From the NCBI GenBank assembly GCA_030590605.1, contig JAUUYB010000001.1:1-23893 (forward strand): DNA of 23,893 bases. The letters run 5' to 3'. The stretch comes from Candidatus Woesearchaeota archaeon (GTDB taxonomy: Archaea; Nanobdellota; Nanobdellia; Woesearchaeales; JAUUYB01). Under the pieces are notes generated by a model. That model was given only the letters and a program-made list of their open reading frames with translations, was not told the DNA's origin and made no database searches. Each line of letters opens with the position of its first letter. The stretch's first letter is position 1. The translations under genes were made by a program, and so were the position numbers. Positions 10,837-18,449 of this stretch are shown here, in pieces.

Positions 10837-12543
10837 ATGGGGGACTTGAGACGGATTGGTATGATCTGCTTCTTATGGGTAGCTCTGCTCTTCTCTATCG
10901 TATCTGCACAGGATGGAAGTATTACCCTTCTTGCAGTATCAGAGAATGCTAATGGGACACTTGTTGGAACTACTGCAGACTTATATCTTGAGGTGAAGCC
11001 AGGGCAGGGGAGGGTATTTATTGAGAGTTTCCCTCTTACTAAGATAGACACGCAGATATCGACAAGGTTTGCGAAGGATATCGCATGCAACTACATAGAT
11101 ATTGATTGTTCAAAGTACGATTTTTTCTATACTATCCGGTCTGATTCTCCGATCATAGGGGGGCCATCTGCGGGCGCTGCGACATCTGTTCTCACTGCGA
11201 GCTTGCTTCTTGGACTTGATTATGATGAAAGTATCGCTCTCACCGGGACTATCAATTCTGGGGGGATAATCGGTTCTGTAGGCGGTGTTTCAGAGAAGAT
11301 ATCAGCAGCCAACAAGTTCGGGATAACTAAAGTGCTTATCCCTGCAGAGGAGATGTCACTAAATGAGACATTTGATGAAGATTTCAGTGTGATATCTGTA
11401 GCCACACTCGATGATGCGATGGAGGAATTCACTGGCAGGAGAAAGGTGTACGGTAAAAAGAACATTACGATATCCCCTGAGTATCAGGAAGTCATGACAA
11501 GATTGGCTGATGAGCTTTGCGGTAGGGCTAAAGAGACAAGCTCTCTTATACATACTGAGGAGTTATCAGCCTTTGACGAATTGTTATTGACTGCTGAGAA
11601 CCTTACGAATAAAGGAGAGATTGCGTATGCTAAAGGAGAACACTTTGCAGCTGCATCGCATTGCTTCGGAGCAGGACTCGCTTACAGACGTCTTCAGCTC
11701 ATGACAGAGAATAGATCATCTGAAGAGCTTTTGATTATGGCAGAAGAGATTGAAGAAGAGATTGATGTTTTCGAGTCACACGTAGAACAAAAAGCGCTTA
11801 GGACTATTACTGATCTCGAAGCATATATGATAGTGAAGGAGCGTCTTATTGAAGCCCGTCAGAATATCAATAAGACTTTTGAGAGGCTTGAAGAAGGGGA
11901 ATTGCCGCATAACGAGCTTGCCTATGCGACCGAGAGACTTACAAGCGCTCGCCTTTGGGCAGGATTTTTTGGTACAGAAGGAAAGGTCTTGGAACTTGAT
12001 AAGGATGTCTTGGAAAGGTCATGTCTTGCGAAGATTGATGAGGCTCAGGAAAGGTATCATTATTCTACTGCATATATTCCAGGCACTTTATCAGATACTT
12101 TAACAGAGATTAACCTTGCTAAAAAAGATTATGATGAAGGTAATTACGCATTATGTTTGTTCAAGGCATCTAAGGCTAAAGCAGAGGCAGACCTAATACT
12201 GAATGCAGTGAGTATTAATCCGGATAACCTTGATAATCTTATAGATCTGAAAGTGGAAGTTGCCGAGCAGGTGATCGCAGATGCTATCGAAAAGGATATG
12301 TTTCCGATAGTGGGGTATAGCTATTACGAATATGCGAAGAACTTGAAGGAATATGATAAGTATTCGTCTCTCCTATATGCTGAGTACGCTCTTGAGCTGT
12401 CAAATTTTGATGTATATCTGGGGAAGGAATATCAGCAGGGAAGGAGTTTAGATTTTAATCTCATGACCACTCTTGTATTCTTCATCGGTTTCTTGACAGG
12501 GGTTGTATTTACTTTTGCATTGATATTTCCGCGTAAGAAATAG
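10837..12543 (+). CDS. Membrane-anchored archaeal Ser/Lys protease (COG1750-like, Lon-type proteolytic fold)
   Basis: 568 aa. A signal peptide or N-terminal anchor (residues 7-24, ending VSAQ) precedes a Lon-type proteolytic domain of about 30-200. The catalytic Ser111 sits in GGPSAGAATS and the partner Lys154 in GGVSEKISAANK. GTINSGGIIGSVGG between them is typical of the fold. No AAA+ module is present. Residues 215-530 are helical, TPR-like and charged, and a C-terminal membrane helix (about 541-563, LMTTLVFFIGFLTGVVFTF) ends with PRKK. This should hold the protease outside the membrane with a short cytoplasmic tail. The likely role is extracytoplasmic protein quality control or processing of secreted proteins, inferred from topology. 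It is a single-gene unit with its own promoter. Confidence 0.88.
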   Translation: MGDLRRIGMICFLWVALLFSIVSAQDGSITLLAVSENANGTLVGTTADLYLEVKPGQGRVFIESFPLTKIDTQISTRFAKDIACNYIDIDCSKYDFFYTIRSDSPIIGGPSAGAATSVLTASLLLGLDYDESIALTGTINSGGIIGSVGGVSEKISAANKFGITKVLIPAEEMSLNETFDEDFSVISVATLDDAMEEFTGRRKVYGKKNITISPEYQEVMTRLADELCGRAKETSSLIHTEELSAFDELLLTAENLTNKGEIAYAKGEHFAAASHCFGAGLAYRRLQLMTENRSSEELLIMAEEIEEEIDVFESHVEQKALRTITDLEAYMIVKERLIEARQNINKTFERLEEGELPHNELAYATERLTSARLWAGFFGTEGKVLELDKDVLERSCLAKIDEAQERYHYSTAYIPGTLSDTLTEINLAKKDYDEGNYALCLFKASKAKAEADLILNAVSINPDNLDNLIDLKVEVAEQVIADAIEKDMFPIVGYSYYEYAKNLKEYDKYSSLLYAEYALELSNFDVYLGKEYQQGRSLDFNLMTTLVFFIGFLTGVVFTFALIFPRKK

Positions 12544-12594: not shown

Positions 12595-12768
12595 ACTTCC
12601 AATAAAAAATATGAAAAAAACCCGGCAAGCATCCCCGTTTCCGGAGATGCTCGCTGGGAAAAAGAGGTGATGGTGAAAAAACCCAGGCAAACCATTCTTG
12701 CGAATGGCTTGCTGGGAAAAAGAGGTGATAGATCGTGATTATGAAGAACTCCTCTTTTCTGTTATGTT
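12595..12768 (-). ncRNA. Candidate small RNA: two tandem GNRA-capped hairpins, each followed by a U tract
   Basis: On the minus strand, hairpin A (12716-12682) has a 15-bp stem with one bulge and a GCAA loop. Hairpin B (12658-12621) has a 17-bp stem and a GAAA loop. Both are GNRA tetraloops only when read on this strand, and stem differences that are A-C mismatches on the plus strand mostly become G-U pairs on the minus strand. Each unit begins with the exact 19-mer ATCACCTCTTTTTCCCAGC (12729-12711 and 12671-12653) and ends in U6 or U7. A promoter with BRE CGAAACC and TATA lies just upstream and predicts a start near 12768. The 5' AAAAGAGG (from 12758-12751) can pair with the first CCUCUUUU. 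AUCACCUC equals the usual 3' end of 16S rRNA, so it may mimic or compete with the anti-Shine-Dalgarno. Function unknown. Confidence 0.6.
12653..12729. repeat. Exact 19-bp direct repeat with 58-bp period
   Basis: GCTGGGAAAAAGAGGTGAT occurs at 12653-12671 and 12711-12729. It forms the conserved 5' part of each unit of the candidate small RNA (minus sense), while the stem interiors differ between the two copies. Confidence 0.9.
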
Positions 12769-12790
12769 AACTATGGAGTAGTACCACAAA

Positions 12791-12804
12791 TATATAAAGG
12801 TTTC
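12791..12804 (-). promoter_or_regulatory. Strong archaeal promoter reading into the tandem hairpins
   Basis: Minus strand CGAAACCTTTATATA, a textbook BRE plus TATA box. No minus-strand protein gene begins within reach, so its natural product is the candidate small RNA; transcription would start near 12768. Confidence 0.6.
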
Positions 12805-12925
12805 GATTTTATAGCACCCTAGAGTAGTAACAACATTTAAGAATTTATTGGATTTTCGAAAAACAAGCATAATTTAGCGACGGCACATAGCAATCTTCTT
12901 AAATGAGGGGTAGGATGATGGATAG

Positions 12926-13936
12926 ATGAGATATCTTATTTTCCTCATCTGCGCCCTCTTGCTCACAGGATGTGATGAGATAAAGATTACTGGTTCGATC
13001 ATCACGATCGATGAGCTGATAGATGAACTCCCTGAAGAAGATGGAGAGATTGAGGCGTTCTTCTGCCCTGTTGATAATTGCAGCGAAAGGCTGATAGGAC
13101 TTATCATGGACTCTGGATCTGTCGATTGCGCATTCTTCGACCTTGACATCCCAGAATTGATCGACGCCCTCGAATCAAGGCAGGCAAGGGTGGTGATAGA
13201 CAATACTAATCAGGAAGAGCTGGAAGAAGCAGGACATCTATCCTTCGTACGATACGATGACGGAAACCGTCTCTCTCACAACAAGTTCTGCATATTCGAT
13301 GAGAAGGTGGTATGGACAGGGAGCTTCAACCCGACATATAATGGGGATCAGAAAAACAATAATAACGTAGTAGTAATAAGATCAAAGTACCTCGCCAAGG
13401 AATTCCAGGATGAGTTCGAAGAATTATGGCGGGGAGAATTTGGTAAGGGTTCTAGGACCCATAATTACAAAGTACTGCTGAATGGTCTATTGACAGAAAC
13501 ATATTTCTGCCCTGATGATTGCAAGACATTCGGTGGAGAGAGCCGCCTGGTGGAACTGATAGATGGCGCAAATGAATCCATAGAGATGGCCATTTTCTCT
13601 TTCACATTGGATTCAGTAGGTGATGCACTCATCCGCGCAAAACAAAGGGGTATCAAGGTCACAGTGATGATCGAGAGCCGCCAGAGGAATGTCAAAGGAT
13701 CAGAATACGGGCGCCTGAAGGAAGCAGGGATCGATATCCTCATAGACAATAACAAAGCCATGATGCATCACAAGTTCGTCATCATCGATGGCAAGATTGT
13801 CTGGACAGGCTCATACAATTTCTCCAGGAACGCGAACAACCGAAATGATGAGAACATCGTGGTGTTGAGAGATCCTGAAGTTGTGAAACGTTTCCAGGAA
13901 GAATTTTCCTCCATAATGGGTGATACCCTACAATAA
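12926..13936 (+). CDS. Phospholipase D-family lipoprotein with two HKD motifs
   Basis: 336 aa. A short hydrophobic N-terminus ends in the lipobox LLTGC (Cys16), so the protein should be a lipid-anchored extracytoplasmic protein. Two PLD repeats follow: HNKFCIFD (H118, K120, D125) and HHKFVIID (H281, K283, D288), each followed by VWTGS(F/Y)N. Both halves contain a close cysteine pair (FCPVDNC near 47-52 and FCPDDC near 195-199), which would suit disulphides outside the cell. Two intact HKD motifs make an active phosphodiesterase. PLD proteins of this size are nucleases (Nuc/EDTA-resistant type) or lipid phosphodiesterases, and a surface nuclease feeding on external DNA is an attractive but unproven idea. 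The TATA-like TTCTTAAAT at 12896-12904 is 26 bp before the ATG. Confidence 0.9.
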   Translation: MRYLIFLICALLLTGCDEIKITGSIITIDELIDELPEEDGEIEAFFCPVDNCSERLIGLIMDSGSVDCAFFDLDIPELIDALESRQARVVIDNTNQEELEEAGHLSFVRYDDGNRLSHNKFCIFDEKVVWTGSFNPTYNGDQKNNNNVVVIRSKYLAKEFQDEFEELWRGEFGKGSRTHNYKVLLNGLLTETYFCPDDCKTFGGESRLVELIDGANESIEMAIFSFTLDSVGDALIRAKQRGIKVTVMIESRQRNVKGSEYGRLKEAGIDILIDNNKAMMHHKFVIIDGKIVWTGSYNFSRNANNRNDENIVVLRDPEVVKRFQEEFSSIMGDTLQ

Positions 13937-13946: not shown

Positions 13947-13968
13947 CTGTCTGGTTTTGGTTGTACTC

Positions 13969-14532
13969 ATGTCAGTAACGAAGGAGATGTTGGGAAAGTT
14001 CTTGATTTCTTTCGATAATTTCCTTGATACGAAATTCAACATCGCAGTGATCGGAGGATGTGTACTAACCTTCTACGATATTGACCATCATACTGAAGAT
14101 ATTGATCTCGTATTCCTAGAGAATCCACCTAAAGGGGTAGTAGATTTCATCAATTTATATTCAGAGCAGAATGGGATTGAGATCCAGTATGGGACGCCTG
14201 AGCGTTTCCAGTCTGTGATAATGAATGAGGATATGTTCGATCATTCCCTGAAGATAGATAAGTTCAAGACTTCGATACTTCATTCCTATAATTTCAAGAA
14301 CCTCAATATTTTCATGCTGAAATTCAGGTATTATGTCCTGGTAAAAATAGAAGCAGGCGCCCATAATCCGAAACATATCCAGGAGGCATTGAGATTAGTC
14401 AAGCATTTTCAGCTTCCTGCAAAGGAATTGATGCACGCGTATGACGAATATAAGGTATATTTGGAAAGCAGTCCAAGGGTTTTATCAGAATTCAAATTCT
14501 TTATGAGAGATGCCTATGGTATCAACATGTGA
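13969..14532 (+). CDS. Nucleotidyltransferase-fold protein (DUF6036 / AbiEii-like)
   Basis: 187 aa from the ATG at 13969; a TTG four codons earlier is possible but falls between the TATA box and the predicted transcript start. The N-terminus shows the minimal nucleotidyltransferase pattern: FNIAVIGG (23-30), then HTEDIDLVF with Asp44 and Asp46 as the metal-binding pair. A helical C-terminal half follows (KFRYYVLVKIEAG, then HIQEALRLVKHF). Proteins of this kind include AbiEii-type toxins and uncharacterised NTases modifying tRNA or proteins. No antitoxin-like partner with its own HTH lies next to it; the adjacent gene is convergent. Function therefore unassigned. Its end overlaps the convergent gene by 11 bases. 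Confidence 0.72.
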   Translation: MSVTKEMLGKFLISFDNFLDTKFNIAVIGGCVLTFYDIDHHTEDIDLVFLENPPKGVVDFINLYSEQNGIEIQYGTPERFQSVIMNEDMFDHSLKIDKFKTSILHSYNFKNLNIFMLKFRYYVLVKIEAGAHNPKHIQEALRLVKHFQLPAKELMHAYDEYKVYLESSPRVLSEFKFFMRDAYGINM

Positions 14533-15274
14533 ACCTGCAATTAGATGCCTGGTCGAAATAATGTTTCTTCTCTTCTTGGAGGTTTGAAAGTTCCTCCAGG
14601 TTCTGCCGGGTCTGATGTAGTGTTCCTTTGATAGCGTCGCTGAGGATGTGGGTGTATGTTTTTTCATCAGTGATTGTGAATCCTAGGAGTTTCTCCATTG
14701 TTTCAACAAGCTTTTGAATAGTCTGGGTTTGGTAAATATTTCCGATCAGAGCAAACTTTGTATCCTTAAGGGCAGATAGTTCTTGTGAAATATTCCTTTC
14801 CTGGCCTTCTGATATGCAGTGCAGTTCAAGCATCTCATACTCTGCATCTTTGTCTTCTGGATTCCTGATGCAATACTGGGTGAGATCATAGATCTTGTCG
14901 TCTCTTAGTATCTCACTTCGTTCATTGAGTCGCTGGATATCCTTTTCGATCTCATCAAGGTGGTAGATTGAATGTTTAATAGATGAATATATGACTTCGA
15001 TATAGTTGTTGATCCTTTTGAGTGTGGGGAGTTTTTGTTCCTCTTCCTCATGGGTTAGTTTTAGAAGGGAGTCATAGGAGTGATTAGCTAAAAGGTCTTC
15101 AATCGTTGTTCCTGATGTTTGATTTGTCATTCTCATACGTCGGCAGATATCTACCATGTTATTACTTAGTAATGGCGAATCTATTCCATTTATAAATCTA
15201 TCTGTTTTCACTTCAATAATGTTTATCGGCTGCTTATCTCGTCTCATTTTTACATGCATCCTTTCTTTATTCAT
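14522..15274 (-). CDS. Unrecognised coiled-coil protein
   Basis: Up to 250 aa; I do not recognise a family. The N-terminal 60 residues are polar. The rest is predominantly helical and charged, with heptad-like stretches (IKHSIYHLDEIEKDIQRLNERSEI region about 97-118, and LHQTRQNLEELSNLQEEKKHYF near the C-terminus). It ends CRFTC. There are no membrane segments or signal peptide. The start is uncertain: a TATA-like CGTTTAATAC (15281-15290, minus) sits only about 11-15 bp before the first ATG, so a leaderless start at the second ATG (15259) or third (15247, MRRDKQPINIIEV) may be used. Divergent from the PfkB kinase. Confidence 0.65.
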   Translation of the reverse strand: MNKERMHVKMRRDKQPINIIEVKTDRFINGIDSPLLSNNMVDICRRMRMTNQTSGTTIEDLLANHSYDSLLKLTHEEEEQKLPTLKRINNYIEVIYSSIKHSIYHLDEIEKDIQRLNERSEILRDDKIYDLTQYCIRNPEDKDAEYEMLELHCISEGQERNISQELSALKDTKFALIGNIYQTQTIQKLVETMEKLLGFTITDEKTYTHILSDAIKGTLHQTRQNLEELSNLQEEKKHYFDQASNCRFTC

Positions 15275-17045: not shown

Positions 17046-18449
17046 ATGGAAGATTACAAAGTAGCAGATATGTCTCTTGCCGGATTCGGCAGGAAAGAGA
17101 TTGATATTGCTGAACAGGAAATGCCAGGACTGATGGCTATCCGGAAAAAATATTCAGCTGACAAGCCGCTTAAAGGTGCAAGGATCACAGGCAGCTTGCA
17201 TATGACCATCCAGACCGCAGTCCTGATAGAGACTCTGGTAGATCTCGGCGCCGACGTCAGGTGGGCATCGTGTAACATATTTTCGACTCAGGATCACGCT
17301 GCAGCTGCGATCGCAAAAGAGGGTATCCCGGTATTCGCCTGGAAAGGAGAGGATCTGAAGGAATATTGGTGGTGCGCGAGAAAAGCTCTTGATTTCGGTG
17401 ATGGAAAAGGGCCGAATCTGATAGTTGACGACGGTGGAGACGCCACTCTTATGGTCCATAAAGGAGTAGAGATAGAAAAAGATCCATCGATCCTGAAGAA
17501 AGACTACAGTGATGAAGGAGAAGATTTCAGGGAGCTTATGAAGATACTTGAAGAGATCCACAAAGAGGATTCATCACGTTGGACAAAAGTCGCAAAAGAG
17601 ATCAAAGGAGTCTCTGAGGAGACCACGACCGGAGTCCACAGGCTATATCAGATGCTCGAAGATAAGGAACTCCTCTTCCCAGCGATCAACGTGAACGATT
17701 CCGTGACGAAATCGAAGTTCGACAACCTCTACGGTTGCAGAGAGAGCCTCGCAGATGGCATCAAGCGGGCGACTGATGTGATGGTCGCAGGCAAGGTCGT
17801 CGTAGTATGCGGGTATGGTGATGTCGGAAAAGGATGCACCCAGTCCATGAAAGGTTATGGGGCGAGGATAATAGTGACAGAGATAGACCCTATCTGTGCT
17901 TTGCAGGCGACGATGGAAGGGTTTGAGGTGAAGACCCTGGAAGAGGCACTTGATGAAGGCAACATCTATGTAACAGCCACAGGGAACTGCGAAGTGATCA
18001 CTGTCGATCATATGAAAAGGATGAAGGATCAGGCGATCGTCTGTAACATCGGTCACTTCGACAACGAGATCCAGGTAGAGAAGCTGGACAAGATGGAAGG
18101 TATCAAGAAGATGAACATCAAGCCGCAGGTGGATCGCTATGATTTCCCTGATGGCCACAGCATCTTCATGCTCGCAGAAGGCAGGTTGGTTAACCTTGGT
18201 TGTGCGACCGGCCACCCTAGTTTCGTCATGAGCAGTTCCTTCACGAACCAGACGCTCGCCCAGATTGAGTTATGGACCAAGGACTATGAGCTTGGTGTGT
18301 TCATGCTGCCAAAAGAGCTCGATGAGGAAGTCGCTAGGCTCCATCTCGGAAAGCTAGGAGTCTCACTAACTACTTTGTCAGATAAACAGGCGAAGTACAT
18401 CGGTGTGAAAGTCGATGGTCCATACAAGCCAGGTCATTACAGGTACTGA
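17046..18449 (+). CDS. ahcY: Adenosylhomocysteinase (S-adenosyl-L-homocysteine hydrolase)
   Basis: 467 aa. It converts SAH to adenosine and homocysteine, removing the product that inhibits methyltransferases. The N-terminal catalytic domain shows [16 protein letters not shown] (49-64), [18 protein letters not shown] (73-90), VDDGGD (127-132) and VTKSKFDN (220-227, with the catalytic Lys/Asp pair). The NAD domain has GYGDVGKG (256-263) and [17 protein letters not shown]. The C-terminus ends KPGHYRY, the tail that completes the neighbouring subunit's NAD site. It also carries the roughly 40-residue insertion at about 141-182. Length, insertion and tail are those of the long bacterial/plant-type enzyme, whereas many archaeal enzymes are shorter, which suggests acquisition from bacteria. 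A T-rich tract after the stop (18453-18469) probably ends the transcript. Confidence 0.97.

Follow-up and report, generated by a model that had tools for sequence, protein, structure and literature searches.

A probable new family of small RNA genes with a 16S-tail-like 5′ strand, widely conserved in Woesearchaeales and related archaea

The window, meaning here the whole stretch of 23,893 nucleotides that was analysed, belongs to a Candidatus Woesearchaeota genome (G000; 1.13 Mb in 166 contigs, 84 % complete) that is the sole representative of its family among the genomes compared. In it, a Lon-like gene with an S16 protease domain (10837..12543, plus strand) is convergent with a short locus on the minus strand, where a BRE/TATA promoter is followed by two units, each made of AUCACCUCUUUUUCCC, a hairpin, and a tract of six or seven U residues. 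The promoter, CGAAACCTTTATATA, is at 12791..12805. Further along the minus strand there is a Shine–Dalgarno-like leader segment, AGAAAAGAGG (12751..12760), and then the core of unit 1, the 19-mer ATCACCTCTTTTTCCCAGC (12711..12729), in which a 16S-tail-like sequence is followed by U5 and C3. This runs into a hairpin of 15 bp with one bulged C and a GCAA loop (12682..12716) and a U6 tract (12676..12681). Unit 2, spaced 58 nt from unit 1, has the identical 19-mer at 12653..12671, a predicted hairpin of 16 bp with one A/C mismatch and a GAAA loop (12621..12658), and a U7 tract (12614..12620) that forms the predicted 3′ end. The promoter, the repeated 19-mer, the hairpins, and the U-tracts had been proposed in the initial annotation and were all located at these positions on the minus strand. 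Overlooked there were the leader segment, predicted to pair with unit 1, and two degenerate dyad-like segments flanking the TATA box, GTTACTACTCTAGGGTGCTA distally (12812..12831, minus strand; two mismatches to ACYAYT-N4-ARTRGT by hand count) and TACTACTCCATAGTTAAC proximally (12766..12783, minus strand; three mismatches by hand count). The distal segment also matches TACTACTNTANAGTAGTA with three mismatches, for which 0.07 matches are expected by chance in the window.

Starts were placed using the usual archaeal spacing between TATA box and transcription start. On this basis the window RNA would start near 12768, with the proximal dyad-like segment at or immediately upstream of the predicted start, and its predicted length is about 155 nt with both units, or about 93 nt if the 3′ end follows unit 1, rather than the 170 nt or so that had been expected. 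In the minimum free energy fold the leader segment pairs with CCUCUUUU of unit 1, so that the core of unit 1 is paired and the core is open in unit 2 only. The minus strand of the element folds more stably (z -7.25) than the plus strand (z -4.03), and on either strand none of 200 shuffled sequences folds as well as the native one.

A covariance model, R1, was built from 42 units (alignment A2) taken from 30 loci. It matches unit 1 at 12678..12733 with 61.0 bits and unit 2 at 12617..12675 with 49.0 bits, both on the minus strand and both being themselves part of the model. There are three R1 matches in the window's genome, two of them these units. A covariance search, suggested earlier as a check, returned matches across the order and the phylum: at E ≤ 0.01, R1 is found in 325 of 352 genomes from the order to which the window belongs and in 207 of 220 genera. 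Among the 180 order genomes with low contamination and a completeness of 90 % or more, 168 match. At E ≤ 0.001, R1 is found in 299 of the 371 genomes of a phylum sample that shares genomes with the order set. There is overlap between the locus sets, and related genomes do not count as independent. BLASTN with the 210-nt element gave matches in 163 of 193 order genomes (E ≤ 0.1); many were weak, and the best fell on the core and hairpin. The whole element occurs once in its own genome (BLASTN), and a reading as a MITE or other repeat was rejected on that ground.

An exact scan for a 16-nt core gave, among the matches listed, 75 of 80 titles naming Woesearchaeota, Nanoarchaeota, Nanoarchaeia, or plain archaeon. 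The other five among these matches were one Pacearchaeota, one Aenigmatarchaeota, and three bacterial titles. The match in the Aenigmatarchaeota entry (L109) has coordinates and score identical to those of the match in G206, which belongs to the window's order. L127, titled Alphaproteobacteria, is without a promoter and probably a chance match. L131 and L137, with titles of bacterial metagenome-assembled genomes, carry the RNA with an archaeal-type promoter as judged by eye; these contigs are probably mis-binned.

No named family had been recognized for this layout, and none was found here: within the window there were no Rfam 15 matches at the gathering cut-off, including none to the small subunit rRNA family of the kind that a 16S fragment or pseudogene would give, and no tRNA or tmRNA (ARAGORN). 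A permissive Rfam search of the window and six relatives gave a single sub-threshold match, located elsewhere in L025. In the literature available on Woesearchaeota, DPANN, Nanoarchaeota, and the small RNAs of N. equitans (few subscription papers, preprints excluded), no such RNA was found; the small RNAs named in the accessible part of the N. equitans RNA-Seq report are C/D and H/ACA RNAs, tRNA halves, and crRNAs (PMC3491384).

The hairpin changes in sequence while its pairing is kept, as had been noted from the two units of the window, and this extends through the family. In A2, 82.4 % of the stem cells are paired, with 106 double-change cells compared with 38.4 in shuffles and with 64 and 32 after sliding by one column. 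Two further alignments, which were fitted to the structure and hence lean towards pairing, agree: A3 (101 matches, including a few weak or opposite-strand ones) has 93.8 % paired cells and 322 double changes against 90.3 in shuffles, and A4 (21 matches from outside the order) has 92.6 % and 66 against 19.9. Loci L186-L205 were chosen mostly among the better-scoring matches outside the order. A lack of covariation, which would have spoken against a structured RNA, is thereby excluded. The 1223 stem cells of A3 include 974 Watson–Crick, 173 GU, and 25 AC cells, and the excess of GU over AC fits transcription from the minus strand. In the core, CACCTCTTTT is invariant in the 42 units of A2, which were chosen with a motif resembling the core, and U4 and CC downstream of the CACC segment are nearly invariant; this conservation is partly selected, because R1 derives from BLAST matches to the window. 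The two bases preceding CACC vary (AU, CU, UU, AC). Both window hairpins do have the GNRA loops originally described, but this is not a feature of the family, in which UUCG, GCAA, and other loops are common.

The plus strand does contain GAGGTGATG and short frames, and could be read as an element with two mini-reading frames, each with a Shine–Dalgarno site. With the units 58 nt apart, however, the two frames differ, the plus strand folds less well, the GU and AC counts favour the other strand, and the promoters point along the minus strand, making this reading highly improbable.

A BRE/TATA-like motif is present upstream of the core in 139 of 190 locus groups. The search pattern demanded a TATA-like motif as well as an AAA box, which makes the conservation of those columns a product of the search. 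With a short leader defined as at most 40 nt from TTA to CACC and units counted by pattern, these promoters divide into 61 short-leader single-unit, 55 long-leader single-unit, 21 long-leader multi-unit, and two short-leader multi-unit loci. The window, with 70 nt from TTA to CACC, has a long leader, two units, and degenerate copies of both dyads. The tandem layout seen there is therefore one variant only, as 116 of the 139 promoters analysed belong to single-unit loci. The distance from TATA box to core peaks at 30-31 nt (30/139) and at 37-39 nt (24/139), so that in these 54 promoters of the short class the start would lie at AUCACC or about 10 nt upstream. The minimal RNA would then be about 50-70 nt, starting at or near AUCACCUC and ending at the U-tract.

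In having a hairpin followed by a U-tract the locus resembles an intrinsic terminator, and three copies on virus contigs (L347, L358, and L382) come immediately after a stop codon and are without a TATA box, as judged by eye. It differs from intrinsic terminators in having its own promoter and a conserved 5′ strand. Both would be superfluous in a mere transcription terminator or intergenic punctuation element, and a BRE/TATA-like motif precedes the core in most locus groups, at one of the two preferred distances in 54 of 139; such an explanation is improbable. Taken together, the promoter, fixed core, covarying hairpin, and U-tract, conserved by comparison, support reading the locus as an RNA gene, and on these sequence comparisons it almost certainly represents a new, widely conserved archaeal family of dedicated non-coding RNA genes.

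The dyad ACYAYT-N4-ARTRGT was found with at most one mismatch in 92 of the 139 promoters, compared with one of 139 after shuffling. Its most frequent start is 31-32 nt ahead of the TTA in the TATA box, with a second, less frequent position at +12 to +15. An operator specific to the RNA was rejected, since in G118, a single-contig relative that is 96 % complete, the dyad with at most two mismatches lies 30-32 nt before a TATA-like TTA in 16 matches (unshuffled). The dyad may be an upstream element general to promoters of this archaeal group. Dyad-bearing promoters in G118 (L206-L263) include some of lipoprotein-like genes.

The long leaders are rich in G. GGGG occurs in 35 of 73, against 4.6 expected by shuffling, and in 29 of these 35 it is within 24 nt of the predicted start. 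Pairing between leader and core in the 73 is at -8.30 kcal/mol compared with -5.38 kcal/mol for shuffled leaders (Wilcoxon p 1.5e-10, in a set where related genomes are not independent). In the folds of two single-unit RNAs the core is open.

The bin that contains the window is without a 16S gene, and the 16S end was taken from G118, in which the gene was located by Rfam. It ends in GGATCACCTCCTTTTTTTT, with a U-run next, and the RNA core copies its CACCUC; the suggestion that the 5′ segment copies the 16S 3′ end thus holds for this relative. The full 16S end, GGAUCACCUCC, is absent from the RNA family, in which GG is not kept and AU is variable. Upstream of 1167 ORF starts in G118, base composition reveals a TATA-like peak around -28 with little Shine–Dalgarno signal, and 911 of these starts are without any Shine–Dalgarno motif of at least 5 nt. 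Because of the TATA-like peak and the scarce Shine–Dalgarno signal, leaderless mRNAs are probably the majority in G118.

The most likely function, put forward tentatively and with somewhat more doubt than belief, is the masking of Shine–Dalgarno sites in leadered mRNAs. The RNA of about 50-70 nt would carry on its terminator-like hairpin a free 5′ pyrimidine strand consisting of the anti-Shine–Dalgarno copy, U4-5, and a run of C, which would act in trans by pairing with purine-rich ribosome sites like AAAAAGAGGUGA. Such pairing would block initiation on leadered mRNAs and spare leaderless ones. In long forms such as that of the window, the G-rich leader would pair with the core and hold it closed. 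This whole account, of an RNA gene, a masking small RNA, and a leader that closes the core in the long forms, is the best explanation that we can offer, and we regard it as close to evenly balanced between right and wrong. The RNA may in this way control which messages are translated.

Bacterial trans-acting small RNAs mask Shine–Dalgarno sites, for example those of the RsaE type with UCCC motifs. The archaeal RNA resembles them in its pyrimidine-rich single strand complementary to ribosome sites, its terminator-like hairpin, and its own promoter; at the sequence level, the promoter and the 3′ terminator-like hairpin are as expected of a masking RNA that acts in trans. It differs in being archaeal and phylum-wide, in having a strand that copies the 16S tail and, in the minimal form, lies at the predicted 5′ end, and in having candidate targets only. 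A sequence link to the bacterial RNAs was assessed through Rfam alone.

Counted in favour of masking was the complementarity of the core to AAAAAGAGGTGA-N4-ATG ribosome sites. Of 336 order genomes, 92 contain this pattern, with an RNA locus among the places at least once, and the reversed pattern gave one match in total. In the 30 loci read, one of them an RNA locus, a hydrophobic N-terminus is present in 14 of the 24 ORFs of at least 40 aa, these 14 including four homologous pilins and two from another homologous pair; the background in G118 is 234 of 1157 ORFs of at least 100 aa. There are five copies of this pattern in G250 and ten in G263, several of them close to contig ends, and these are perhaps a repeated mobile element. 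The related pattern GGAAAAAGAGGTGA-N4-14-ATG is found in 63 of 352 order genomes, and its reverse in none. Reading 48 loci by eye, most of the 68 places listed, gave 33 that resemble the RNA gene itself, 14 others, and one ambiguous. Of these 14 others, seven lie ahead of an ORF of at least 60 aa, four being pilin-like (in four genomes, three of them from one genus), two from another family, and one a small membrane protein. A pilin target extended by GG is weakened by the absence of the exact GG in the pilin homologues L338 and L340, and because of this the complementarity may only mirror strong Shine–Dalgarno sites.

In the window's own genome there are 12 sites with at most one mismatch from the 13-mer, compared with three for the reversed pattern. 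Ten are outside the window, six of these before an ORF, and five of the six ORFs appear by eye to encode secreted or membrane proteins. Secreted proteins as a target class lost support, since the pattern was not reproduced in G118, where hydrophobic N-termini are no commoner among ORFs that have a complementary site (5/26 vs 234/1157). In the other loci there is a weak excess (6/13 ORFs with complementary sites vs 137/620 in all; p 0.045). Across the 1167 ORF start regions of G118, the core pairs no better than 12 shuffled cores or the reversed core, with 74 regions below -14 kcal/mol for the core, 37-97 for the shuffles, and 74 for the reversed core. No single target conserved across the phylum was found in these searches. 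Pairing with GAGGUG sites had also been suggested, and such a candidate site does lie 5 nt before an in-frame ATG of ahcY at 17046 (GAGGTG), but the window holds no more copies of GAGGTG than expected (eight found vs 10.9 expected). Pairing of the RNA with strong ribosome sites of these archaea is possible.

The best outside complement in G118, among the k-mers scanned, is GGGAAAAAGAGGTGAA, which is complementary over 16 nt, or 18 with two stem bases. The site directly precedes the ATG that opens a hydrophobic frame of 28 codons, and a TATA-like box lies upstream. Type I antitoxin RNAs act against small membrane peptides, and in this respect the site is reminiscent of them. Unlike a type I antitoxin, the RNA is not opposite the frame, the case comes from one genome only, and translation and toxicity of the frame are hypothetical. 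Among the 48 loci read for one exact pattern, no counterpart of this candidate was found.

The genes beside the RNA were grouped into clusters from 155 de-duplicated loci, some sharing a genome, with one member checked for domains in each cluster except DnaG and PLD, which were named by eye. The largest is the Lon-like gene, with 65 proteins, 56 of them encoded by the first gene downstream in convergent orientation. It is followed by PLD-type (30), Cys-rich (29), RIO1 kinase (21), S24e (20), and DnaG (19) clusters, and by smaller ones of a KH protein of Dim2/Pno1 type (14) and ScpA (13). The Cys-rich member tested had no Pfam or NCBIfam match; in L047 and its relatives, the RNA gene repeatedly has a divergent Cys-rich protein (MCGLCRKR...) as its neighbour. 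In the window, a PLD-family nuclease-like protein with a lipobox-like N-terminus (LLLTGC) is encoded at 12926-13936 on the plus strand, and similar genes are recurrently divergent from the RNA gene. The window ORFs at 13957-14532 (plus strand) and 14522-15274 (minus strand) overlap at their ends on opposite strands and are without Pfam matches.

Some of these neighbours bear on the main rival explanation, in which the RNA would be a decoy of the 16S tail that binds Dim2/Pno1, Nob1, Rio1, or aIF2-linked factors and so meters small-subunit maturation or initiation. Archaeal Dim2 binds the 16S 3′ end. At some loci of the family, rio1 is the divergent neighbour, with the Dim2-type KH gene behind it; at others the RNA gene is near S24e. 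The likeness to the 16S rRNA 3′ end, with its helix 45 and anti-Shine–Dalgarno tail, is the shared CACCUC, often within AUCACCUC, and the U-run that comes next in G118. In the RNA, however, the strand precedes the hairpin, the GG before AUCACC is lost, and the gene is free-standing. The loss of GGAU and the variable bases before CACC, set against the nearly invariant U4 and CC in A2, are not what a decoy would lead one to expect, and it is the Lon-like gene, not rio1, that forms the largest neighbour cluster. The decoy is accordingly considered unlikely, if still worth weighing. Rio1, Pno1 (Dim2), and Nob1 are reported to cooperate in the final step of 18S maturation (PMC4231747).

Alternatively, the RNA could be a protein-bound housekeeping or scaffold RNA, bound for example by SmAP at U5 or by the ribosome, with a 5′ strand that does not base-pair. 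An RNA that is near-universal in the order and highly constrained would suit this, as would U5 next to the hairpin and the U-tail for binding by an LSM protein; an LSM/SmAP gene, also counted in favour of masking, was found in all eight genomes inspected. Such a role would leave unexplained why the invariant part is an anti-Shine–Dalgarno sequence and why long leaders are complementary to it, and copy number is variable, with tandem repeats. It is judged rather unlikely. Masking by the 5′ strand remains the preferred reading. To our knowledge, little is known of regulatory RNAs in DPANN archaea. If the RNA gene is as described, present in about nine-tenths of the genomes of the order, throughout the phylum, and on virus contigs, it would be part of basic DPANN biology, and its anti-Shine–Dalgarno copy raises the question of whether leadered versus leaderless translation, or 16S maturation, is steered by a ribosome-mimicking RNA.

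Some tailed-virus contigs carry RNA copies adjoining terminase or portal genes. An exact pattern was found on 12 IMG/VR contigs, seven of them above 31 bits with R1, and a looser pattern in 42 IMG/VR stretches that cover 11 of these 12 contigs. Among the 31 new stretches, 22 have E ≤ 0.001, of which 12 reach at least 33.9 bits; several of the 12 are identical and two are inside an ORF. In L345 the order along one strand is a terminase gene (E 1e-43), the RNA, a small ORF, and a portal gene (E 1e-84). L342 has the same arrangement with a weak terminase match (2e-5), and L346 combines the RNA with a portal gene (7e-78) and with a gene identified by eye as a terminase. The terminase side is seen in L350 (3e-47) and the portal side in L349 (2e-58), a separate contig of the same metagenome.

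A more far-reaching idea is that the RNA is a phylum-wide switch responding to ribosome availability, in which free 30S subunits would bind the Shine–Dalgarno-like leader by their own tail and release the core, and the released core would shut down leadered mRNAs while leaderless translation continued; putative archaeal viruses would carry their own copy to bias host translation. This is speculative and is held to be doubtful. Of the weaker viral matches, those of L343, L344, L352, and L353, at about 24 bits, were dismissed on visual inspection, and that of L351 scored 23.9 bits.
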